Shown here: positions 3,511-18,768 of the stretch, one piece after another
How the letters are laid out: the number at the start of each line of letters is the position of its first letter
Position numbering within the stretch: position 1 is the stretch's first letter
Source of the DNA: Candidatus Nomurabacteria bacterium
GTDB taxonomy: Bacteria > Patescibacteriota > Minisyncoccia > Phycocordibacterales > UBA9973
Assembly (NCBI GenBank): GCA_016196605.1
Contig: JACPXJ010000002.1
Span: 1-37,365, forward strand
Reading direction: 5' to 3'
Length of the DNA stretch: 37,365 bases
Position numbers and translations under genes: made by a program
Notes under the pieces: model-generated
Databases searched by the model: none
What the model saw: the letters and a program-made list of their open reading frames with translations, nothing else
Told to the model about the DNA's origin: nothing

Positions 3511-3539
3511 ATTATACCCCCCCCGACGTACCATGTCAA
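3511..3539 (-). promoter_or_regulatory. sigma70-like promoter with G8 tract in the spacer
   Basis: Minus strand TTGACA-TGGTACGTCGGGGGGGG(17 nt)-TATAAT, upstream of the CDS start at 3478. Confidence 0.8.
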
Positions 3540-16050: not shown

Positions 16051-17094
16051 TTATATCCTATCATATAATTCTCTCCTAATTTTTCCAGCTAATTTGTAAC
16101 TATTCCCATGTGAAATCAACCCTAGATAAGATTGGACTGTTTCCTGCTTTGGATTATTCCTTAAATTTTTCAACATTCGGTTCTTGGTAGTCGTCCGTAA
16201 AACTCGATGCTTTGGAAAATGCACCCAGCCGAGGAAATCAAGGCCGGAAGCAAAAGTTTTAATAAAAACTTTGTCGGGATGAAGTTGTAGCTTAAGTTTG
16301 TGTTCAAAAAAATCAGAAATTTTAGGGAGCAAATTTTCAAGATAATTTTTACTATCGCTTAGTATCGCAAAATCATCCGCATACCTGATATAATATTTTA
16401 CTTTCAATTCTCTTTTCATAAACTGATCAAATTCGTTCATGTAAATATTTACCAGAAGCTGGGAAGTTAAATTCCCTAACGGCAACCCCTTGCATATATC
16501 AGCCCCGCCGACGCTAAAGCTTTGGCGGGCAGGCATGGCGTAGGTATGCTTTGAATTGAAACTATCTATCACCTGTGAAAGCAGCCAGAGAACATCTTTG
16601 TCAAAGAGACACTTTGACAATATCGATTTCAAAATACTGTGGTCAATGCTCGCAAAGAATTTCCGAATATCGCATTTGAGCACCCAGCAGGTTTTGGTGT
16701 TGTTTTTTGAGACTTTTCTAGAGAAATCGCGAAATCTACTTATGGCTTTATGCGTTCCTTTGTTTATCCGGCAGGAATATGAGTCGTGAATGAATTTGGA
16801 ATCGAAATACGGATAAAGCTCTTGGTAAATTAAATGGTGAAGCAATCTATCTCTGACTAGTGCCTTATGTATCTGCCTCGGTTTCGGATCGGAAATATTA
16901 AAAGCATGATAACCGCCATGCGTGTAAGTTTTATTTTTCAAATCATTTTGTAGAGACAGAATATTATCCATCAGGTGCAGCTGAAATTCTTGAACGTCTT
17001 TTCTATTTCTTTTGTCGCGTAAAAATTCCTGCCAAGCTTTAAGCAGATTTTCTATGGTTATGATATTATCATATGTATGAACAAATCTTTTCAT
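16051..17094 (-). CDS. DGR reverse transcriptase
   Basis: LVRDRLLHHLIYQELYPYFDSKFIHDSYSCRINKGTHKAI, WVLKCDIRKFFASIDH, GLPLGNLTSQLLVNIYMNEFDQF, YIRYADDFAIL, GLDFLGW; about 350 aa without maturase or endonuclease domain. Confidence 0.95.
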   Translation of the reverse strand: MKRFVHTYDNIITIENLLKAWQEFLRDKRNRKDVQEFQLHLMDNILSLQNDLKNKTYTHGGYHAFNISDPKPRQIHKALVRDRLLHHLIYQELYPYFDSKFIHDSYSCRINKGTHKAISRFRDFSRKVSKNNTKTCWVLKCDIRKFFASIDHSILKSILSKCLFDKDVLWLLSQVIDSFNSKHTYAMPARQSFSVGGADICKGLPLGNLTSQLLVNIYMNEFDQFMKRELKVKYYIRYADDFAILSDSKNYLENLLPKISDFFEHKLKLQLHPDKVFIKTFASGLDFLGWVHFPKHRVLRTTTKNRMLKNLRNNPKQETVQSYLGLISHGNSYKLAGKIRRELYDRI

Positions 17095-17482
17095 GATTCC
17101 CGGACCCCCCCCCGCAGCGCCTTCAGCGCTTCTAAAAACAAAAACCGCCTACTTTATTTGGTTTAATATATACAACGATTTTCCTAAAGCCCATCGCTAT
17201 ACTCTGGGCGGAAAGATTGAGGATTACTTTCTTGGCCTCTTGGAAAATATTTTTATTTCTATATATCTGCCGCCGGAAACTAAAATCCCCCGCCTCATCT
17301 TGGCAATTTCCAAACTTGATGGAGTCAAATTCTTCCTGCAAATTGCCTGGGAAAACAAATGCGTTCCCAATGAGAAATATTCCCTTCTTTCAGAAAACTT
17401 GGATGAAATAGGCAGAATGCTCGGCGGCTGGAAAAAAGGCATAGAAAACAATTTGCAAAAGAAAACTCCTCCAAACAAATGA
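17093..17482 (+). CDS. avd: DGR accessory (Avd-like) helical-bundle protein; start uncertain
   Basis: YFIWFNIYNDFPKAHRYTLGGKIEDYFLGLLENIFISIYL...KFFLQIAWENKCVPNEKYSLLSENLDEIGRMLGGWKKGI; no clear SD and a C9 tract near the start. Confidence 0.8.
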   Translation: MIPGPPPAAPSALLKTKTAYFIWFNIYNDFPKAHRYTLGGKIEDYFLGLLENIFISIYLPPETKIPRLILAISKLDGVKFFLQIAWENKCVPNEKYSLLSENLDEIGRMLGGWKKGIENNLQKKTPPNK

Positions 17483-17497
17483 AGGAGAAACAGCGAG

Positions 17498-17611
17498 TTT
17501 CGGGGTTACGAAGCGATGCCGATACTTGGCATTCCAGACGTTGTCGTTTGAGAACGGATTCACGTTGACCTTGAGCTGACCATTGTCGTCGAAATTCACG
17601 TTGGCAACGAA
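17498..17611 (-). repeat. DGR template repeat (TR), 114 bp
   Basis: Ungapped alignment to 18015-18128 (offset 517); all 29 differences are at minus-strand adenines. Would encode FVANVNFDDNGQLKVNVNPFSNDNVWNAKYRHRFVTPK. Confidence 0.97.
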
Positions 17612-17946
17612 GAATTGTGCAGAAAGCCATCCATTCCACTGCCGACTCAAGCAATTCTTAATATATTATATATGATAGTCTAAGAAAATCGGGAGTCGTG
17701 CTGTATATTATTTGGGGCTTAAAAGCCCGCAAACTCACTGCACCAACTTTATATGTTTTTTATTTGTTAAAAACTAATTCACTCTTTCGCAAGATATAAT
17801 TACCCGACAAAATTCTCAAATCAATTTTTAAATAATCATGGCTTAGAGTCTTGACCCATAAGCATTACCCGATTACAGATTTAGTATAGCAAAATTAAAA
17901 AAATAAAGAACCAAAGAGTAAAAGTTTCAAAGTGTATAAATAGAAA

Positions 17947-17990
17947 AAGCCGCGCACACTTTCTCTGGTTAGAAAAAAGCGTGGCGGCTT
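17947..17990 (-). terminator. Terminator-like hairpin downstream of the DGR target gene
   Basis: AAGCCGC...GCGGCTT arms plus CAC/GTG; T5 tract on the minus strand after the stem. Confidence 0.65.
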
Positions 17991-18001
17991 TGTGATTGGA
18001 A

Positions 18002-18016
18002 AGTAGCAAAGCTACT
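18002..18016. promoter_or_regulatory. Short hairpin at the 3' boundary of the VR
   Basis: AGTAGC-AAA-GCTACT inverted repeat overlapping the target stop codon; position resembles the post-VR hairpins of characterised DGRs. Confidence 0.5.
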
Positions 18017-18623
18017 GCGGGGCGACGAAGCGACGCCGACACCAGGCATGCCAGACGCAGCCGCGAGAGAACGGAAACACGCGGACCCCGAGCCGACCAC
18101 CGCCGCCGAAAAACACGCTGGCAACGAAACCCCCTTCAAGCTCGAAGAATGTGGCATAACCGTCGGTACGGAGAGCATCCGGATGGTCGTCACAGAAGAT
18201 CAGAACTTGTTCCCGGTTCTGCCAGCGGCCGCGTCCTGCGCCCAGACTGCCGAAGACCTTGGCCCAGCTGCCGTTCACGATCTGCTCGTAAACGATGGCA
18301 TCTGTTGCCCTAGAGGATTTTTCCTCCGGCACAGCCTCTTCTCCGTAGACCCTGTCGCCGAAAACACCACTCCCCTTGAATTTTTTGGTGCCATGGGTGG
18401 CGGGAACGTGGAAGGTCGTCCTATCGAACAAACGGCGAAGGTAAACGACCGGCTCGGCTTTCGGACGTTTCCAATCGCCGAATTGCTCTTCCCGATCTTC
18501 TGGAGAGAGATTGTTGAACCGCTCCCATTGATCGAGTGTGATCTGGCGATCACGATACTTTTGCAGTGTGTCAATTTGCAGACCAGCCAACTTAGTGGCC
18601 GTATCCGCTTCGATGGTGTTCAT
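18012..18623 (-). CDS. DGR target (diversified) protein, 203 aa, C-terminal VR
   Basis: Start MNTIEADTATKLAGL with upstream AAAGGA; last 38 codons are the VR, FVASVFFGGGGRLGVRVFPFSRGCVWHAWCRRRFVAPQ, then stop. Confidence 0.92.
   Translation of the reverse strand: MNTIEADTATKLAGLQIDTLQKYRDRQITLDQWERFNNLSPEDREEQFGDWKRPKAEPVVYLRRLFDRTTFHVPATHGTKKFKGSGVFGDRVYGEEAVPEEKSSRATDAIVYEQIVNGSWAKVFGSLGAGRGRWQNREQVLIFCDDHPDALRTDGYATFFELEGGFVASVFFGGGGRLGVRVFPFSRGCVWHAWCRRRFVAPQ
18015..18128 (-). repeat. DGR variable repeat (VR), exactly 38 codons
   Basis: 29/32 TR adenines substituted (17 A>G, 7 A>T, 5 A>C on the coding strand), 0/82 other positions changed. Confidence 0.97.
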
Positions 18624-18768
18624 CGTTTTCCTTTTGTTTATGCAACGACGGAATGTCGTCACAAGTTTAAAGAAACACTTGTCAAACACTCGATGTTTGA
18701 CACTTTTATTTCCTAAAACCTGTGGCGAATCCGTCTTTATTTAAAGAGCTTATCTGTATATTGTACAC

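Follow-up and report, generated by a model that had tools for sequence, protein, structure and literature searches.

The closest described system to the locus considered here is the DGR of Bordetella phage BPP-1, a cassette (mtd-avd-TR-brt) in which every gene is on the same strand, avd comes before the template repeat (TR), 144 nucleotides separate TR from the reverse transcriptase (RT) gene brt, and no run of seven or more G or C residues is found. A second point of reference is the Patescibacteria-restricted DGR clade 2 of Roux et al. 2021 (PMC8144416), which the present locus resembles in its CPR host, its chromosomal position and its targets, in which no domains are recognized; the main text of that paper mentions neither Avd, nor antisense orientation, nor repeat tracts. 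A third is provided by the contingency loci of Neisseria and Campylobacter, and by the inlA homopolymer of L. monocytogenes (PMC2831843), in which a simple-sequence repeat (SSR) with a unit that is not a multiple of three is placed in 5' coding sequence. The control of DGR activity is little known, and good variants are destroyed by a DGR in permanent operation.

The window (the whole stretch of DNA that was analysed, 37,365 nucleotides in length) corresponds to contig 27 in a genome of 617 kb. It contains a complete DGR, chromosomal in location, from a Parcubacterium close to Candidatus Nomurabacteria; among named genomes, the nearest relatives of its RT are found in Ca. Nomurabacteria and other Parcubacteria. 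The element itself is of a known kind, and corresponds to that of BPP-1 in its RT family, in the fold of its accessory protein (Avd), in a TR and variable repeat (VR) that differ at adenines only, and in the C-terminal position of VR. It departs from BPP-1 in the placement of avd, which lies antisense between TR and the RT gene, and in possessing both a hairpin after TR and an SSR tract in the 5' part of avd. The order of its genes is target gene with C-terminal VR (minus strand), TR (minus), avd (plus) and RT (minus), with the following features:

18012 to 18623, minus strand: target gene, 203 amino acids when read from its likely ATG, no Pfam family; the reading frame can also be opened from a GTG at 18689
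18015 to 18128, minus strand: VR, forming the final 38 codons of the target gene, with 29 of 32 adenines changed (alignment)
17498 to 17611, minus strand: TR (recomputed alignment and independent repeat finder)
17466 to 17487, minus strand: hairpin and T-run about 10 nucleotides after TR, overlapping, on the opposite strand, the stop codon of avd; terminator-like, or a structured end of the TR RNA
17093 to 17482, plus strand: avd, on the strand opposite to RT, TR and VR, with a start that overlaps the RT start codon (bAvd, 6.5e-13)
16051 to 17094, minus strand: DGR reverse transcriptase, 347 amino acids, with YADD and GLPLGNLTSQ motifs (RVT_1, 3.3e-24; PDB 8ub7, 3.3e-40)

The top PDB match of the RT is the Bordetella DGR enzyme (8ub7), and L206 of the window protein, within its GLPLGNLTSQ motif, aligns with I181 of the Bordetella RT (bRT). 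The accessory protein was recognized both from its sequence (the bAvd match, accompanied by an NCBIfam DivGenRetAVD match of 5.6e-16 that falls below the cut-off) and from its fold: the model is a four-helix structure (pLDDT 90), disordered in the residues that precede the tract, which matches both Avd 4dwl (probability 1.00, TMt reaching 0.89) and, in the DGR ribonucleoprotein 8ub7, the Avd chains. The VR ends at the codon that immediately precedes the stop of the target gene. Domain and fold searches with the target protein yielded no significant match, and its AlphaFold model (pLDDT 77) gave no Foldseek match at E<=0.001; the order of its C-terminal elements (strand-helix-helix-four-strand) fits that of the C-type lectin (CLec) fold. 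By homology to BPP-1, the RT, partnered by Avd, would copy the TR RNA with misincorporation at adenines, and the resulting cDNA would then take the place of the 3'-terminal VR of the target gene, a scheme of which the A-only difference between TR and VR is the observed part. A search of the DGR region for known RNA families found none. About 10 nucleotides after TR, 74 of 80 loci have a hairpin with a T-run (mononucleotide shuffles predict 5), with 66 distinct stems among them; it probably serves to end the TR transcript. After VR, at 17949-17988, a long-looped inverted repeat with a T-run (GCCGC...GCGGC) was read by eye, and is likely to be a terminator of the target gene or a homing hairpin.

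The original prediction, made from the sequence of the window, described nearly saturated and adenine-restricted change between TR and VR, and an ungapped alignment recomputed on the coding (minus) strand agreed with it exactly: 29 of 32 TR adenines are substituted in VR, and 0 of 82 other sites, so that no G, C or T of TR is altered. The changes consist of 17 A>G, 7 A>T and 5 A>C, altering 20 codons and, at the protein level, 18 of 38 residues, again as predicted; the three adenines of 32 that are kept were correctly placed in AAC>AGC, AAT>CAT and the last codon (AAA>CAG). Both of the AAG codons that had been noted in TR as possible sources of stops are present (having become GGG and TGG in VR), and the final AAA codon is likewise able to become a stop. 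The same pair was recovered by an independent repeat finder (76% over 111 nucleotides). Because all 29 changes hit adenine, which occupies only 32 of 114 sites, the specificity lies far beyond chance, and the assignment to adenine-specific mutagenic homing by a DGR was right, with RT, Avd, TR and C-terminal VR all found. No further VR of this TR was found across the genome.

A yardstick for the extent of change was obtained by scanning related loci for A-only repeat pairs, which gave 81 usable TR/VR pairs (the window and 80 others). The A-only pattern recurs in the 80 related pairs, with 20 non-A mismatches in 6998 sites over the entire set. The fraction of adenines changed in those 80 averages 51.6% (sd 12%, maximum 82%), and the window VR, at 91%, is the highest of the 81, the next two standing at 82%. 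The probability of at least 29 changes in 32 is 2.6e-6 under a binomial model and 1.6e-6 with trinucleotide-context rates (16.8 of 32 expected); the spread among loci exceeds the binomial (P 1e-5), and a beta-binomial model that allows for locus-to-locus variation gives 2.7e-4, with 0.02 cases expected in 81. Such near-saturation is quantitatively unusual, and against a yardstick of 52% of adenines changed and 56% A>G the value of 91% is a true outlier. Its spectrum is ordinary (G 59%, T 24% and C 17%, versus pooled values of G 56%, T 26% and C 18%; chi-square P 0.94), and A>G is dominant for bRT in E. coli as well (PMC12875486).

The adenine-specific homing of the original prediction thus stood, and its explanation of the saturation fared less evenly. 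Many successive rounds of homing, the first cause proposed, would accord with a VR that tops all 81 pairs; VR mutations are, however, overwritten each time that a DGR reactivates (PMC8867640), and because each homing event rewrites VR from an unmutated TR, the changed fraction is expected to settle at the per-round misincorporation rate (published for bRT as 31% in E. coli and 51% in vitro; PMC12875486), which makes an accumulation over rounds highly improbable. The saturation most likely reflects high per-round misincorporation, selection on the window VR, or both; an error-prone RT, the second cause proposed, is a possible one, and RT error rate and selection are inseparable here because there is a single VR. 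The changed fraction averages 59% in 12 loci whose RT is at least 70% identical versus about 50% in the remainder. RT identity to the window was rejected as a predictor of that fraction (Spearman 0.11, P 0.34), as was strong selection for change as a general cause, since silent adenine sites of the relatives change similarly (21 of 46, versus 1273 of 2411 for other adenine sites).

The frequency of stops, and the dependence of change on position, could also be read from the related pairs. AAG-derived stops occur and are rare: one of 67 AAG codons became TAG, internally and in frame, in the VR of locus L048, a natural DGR-made nonsense variant, and two AAA codons became stops, both of them the last codon of a VR. 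In AA-starting codons of the 80 pairs, the first adenine is changed in 67% of cases versus 43% at the second position, and the rates for trinucleotide contexts span 0.79 (GAA) to 0.11 (TAG).

The antisense placement of avd proved to be general in the lineage. Among 111 non-redundant loci with a placed Avd, 108 carry it antisense and adjoining the RT start and one carries it in sense, the other two comprising a mis-set RT start and an inverted RT. TR was also located in 87 of the 108 antisense loci, and avd lies between TR and RT there. Nine more loci that gave no Avd BLAST hit nevertheless possess an antisense reading frame of 125-145 amino acids; the three of these that were checked match bAvd, two of them above the Pfam cut-off. 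Across the lineage, avd lies head to head with RT and starts at or inside the RT start region. The gene displays a dN/dS of about 0.05-0.08, with dN well below dS in pairs of 12 near loci, and is thus under purifying selection in the loci compared. Two distant loci are arranged differently: in L051 (RT 36% identical) avd follows TR in sense, and in L053 (RT 33% identical) the RT is inverted relative to TR and VR.

At the junction of avd and RT lie two further features:

17105 to 17113, plus strand: C9 tract (G9 on the RT strand) in the 5' coding region of avd, 12 nucleotides past the ATG; the proposed switch, ON
17116 to 17130, no strand assigned: inverted repeat AGCGC-CTTCA-GCGCT beside the tract, seen in the sequence

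In the window, C9 gives the full Avd (129 amino acids), and lengths of 7, 8, 10 or 11 lead to a stop at codon 14-25, so that the window copy is in the ON frame. A census of 119 loci, conducted independently of Avd detection, found a junction tract in 100 of them (94 poly-G of at least 7, 4 GA, 1 GT and 1 TTGG), and none in control windows inside RT (0 of 119) or at -400 (0 of 118); the tract is absent in 15 of the 119. Poly-G/C tracts are 7-13 nucleotides long, the units of the non-G tracts are 2 or 4 nucleotides and never 3, and the Avd frame is open across the tract in 92 of 93 loci. They correspond to one attribute of a phase-variable gene, namely a hypermutable SSR, with a unit that is not a multiple of three, inside the 5' end of a reading frame. 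Elsewhere, G/C runs of at least 7 number 5 in 590 kb, and the only G9 runs of the 617 kb genome are at its two DGR junctions. Sister loci whose RTs are 90% identical differ in their tracts, with G9 and G13 in one pair and G9 and (TTGG)10 in another, in a comparison that uses one genome per species.

All of these loci derive from MAGs, in which the contig consensus at a homopolymer may err by one, and N runs occur at or beside the tract in two scaffolds (L109 and L123). That the tract and the scatter of its frames are assembly errors can nonetheless hardly be given any weight: across independent projects and assemblers the tract occupies one and the same position in 100 of the 119 loci and is not seen at others, and such errors would not produce a conserved ATG or the GA, GT and TTGG variants.

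Additional repeats were noted in the same genome and around the tract. A lone intergenic C8 lies at 3517-3524 of the window (G8 on the minus strand), and the genome contains three further G8 runs, one of them upstream of a transposase-like reading frame (L183); these were rejected as additional switches of the avd type, no Avd or RT adjoining the three examined. Inverted repeats similar to that at 17116-17130 are present in relatives, some changed on both arms (e.g. L027, L019, L020 and L168), and the repeat might favor slippage or regulate avd and RT.

The second DGR junction belongs to an RT with avd on contig C22, 79% identical to the window RT, also with G9 and in frame. The end of contig C23 (L038:5150-5425) and the start of C22 (L037:1-141) overlap by 141 nucleotides, such that a VR-type gene end directly meets a TR end; this join may represent either a VR/TR recombination that deleted the interval or a branch in the assembly. 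A third RT gene, on contig C18 (L039:4988-5909), is split by a frameshift and lacks a detectable avd, and on its sequence is a decayed DGR.

The frame of avd relative to its start codons was compared across 93 loci. An open ATG lies within 60 nucleotides upstream of the tract in all 93 (shuffles 37, sd 5), and the nearest such ATG is in frame with Avd in 27, +1 in 39 and +2 in 27, so that its frame depends on tract length. Avd is nonetheless intact in all 66 of the 66 out-of-frame loci; ON and OFF frames are thus scattered among relatives with the downstream reading frame preserved, as in SSR contingency loci. In 24 loci no in-frame ATG, GTG or TTG exists on either side of the tract, and in many a TTG or GTG between the tract and the Avd domain might act as a start. 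The upstream ATG is often the antisense of an N-terminal His codon of RT, and that codon is CAT in 71 cases and CAC in 1, compared with a ratio of 772:485 in the remainder of those RTs (P 1e-13). For other codons ending in C or T close to the RT start, any shift is weaker (Asp 89 versus 66%, Phe 83 versus 74%, Tyr none). The possibility that the upstream ATG simply follows from the RT His codon was ruled out by this codon bias and by loci that lack that His.

Two further accounts of the tract bear on these data. In the first, the tract would serve expression of RT, as a Shine-Dalgarno substitute or promoter spacing 5-40 nucleotides before the RT start, with Avd a bystander. In favor of this account, nearly all loci have the tract immediately before the RT ATG, and poly-G could pair with the anti-SD; the account leaves unexplained the conserved antisense ATG, the CAT bias, the open Avd frame in 92 of 93 loci and the GT and TTGG variants, and the distance from tract to RT start is highly variable, which together render it a decidedly unlikely account. 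In the second, the tract would be a programmed site at which RNA polymerase or the ribosome slips, each cell obtaining some Avd at any DNA length. Transcriptional slippage is possible at homopolymers, and two thirds of the loci are out of frame with an Avd that is intact and, where compared, conserved. However, one fixed frame would then be expected, and the frames are near uniform; furthermore, (GA)n, (GT)n and (TTGG)n substitute for poly-G at the same position, and these are classical replication-slippage repeats rather than usual polymerase-slippage sites. Programmed slippage is accordingly regarded as unlikely.

The conserved tract, the upstream ATG, the scattered frames, and the intact and conserved Avd of out-of-frame loci instead argue that Avd is phase-variable. 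The tract lies between the avd start codon and the four-helix domain, and replication slippage within it would shift the frame of Avd and reversibly toggle the protein, and presumably mutagenesis, in single cells. Slippage within populations and ON/OFF expression of avd are here inferred from sequence comparison, and a requirement for Avd in the DGRs of Parcubacteria is assumed from BPP-1. The fraction of VR adenines substituted does not differ with predicted state (ON 0.525, OFF 0.524), an equality that would follow if RT fidelity sets the fraction and that lends no functional support. The whole account, of a complete chromosomal DGR in which SSR slippage phase-varies avd, and presumably mutagenesis, and in which a hairpin ends the TR transcript, is held with good confidence; its extension across Parcubacteria, in which DGR hypermutation would be gated by a stochastic and reversible slipped-strand switch of an antisense avd whose start is overprinted on RT, is considered probable, with somewhat more reserve. 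No paper tying DGRs to SSRs or to slippage as a regulator was found in the literature searched, which did not extend to two DGR surveys; to our knowledge that literature has no description of a conserved antisense avd whose frame is set by an SSR, and an earlier mention of antisense avd is possible.

Known SSR contingency loci mainly control surface structures or DNA modification, whereas the tract described here would act on the cofactor of a mutagenic retroelement, and would thus be a switch on a mutator. If this is true, it would constitute a contingency locus governing a targeted mutator, for which tract polymorphism, and a link between VR diversity and the ON frame, are predicted. A minority of cells would diversify as the majority kept a good VR locked, and slippage at Avd would provide a large group of uncultured, ultra-small bacteria with a simple control.
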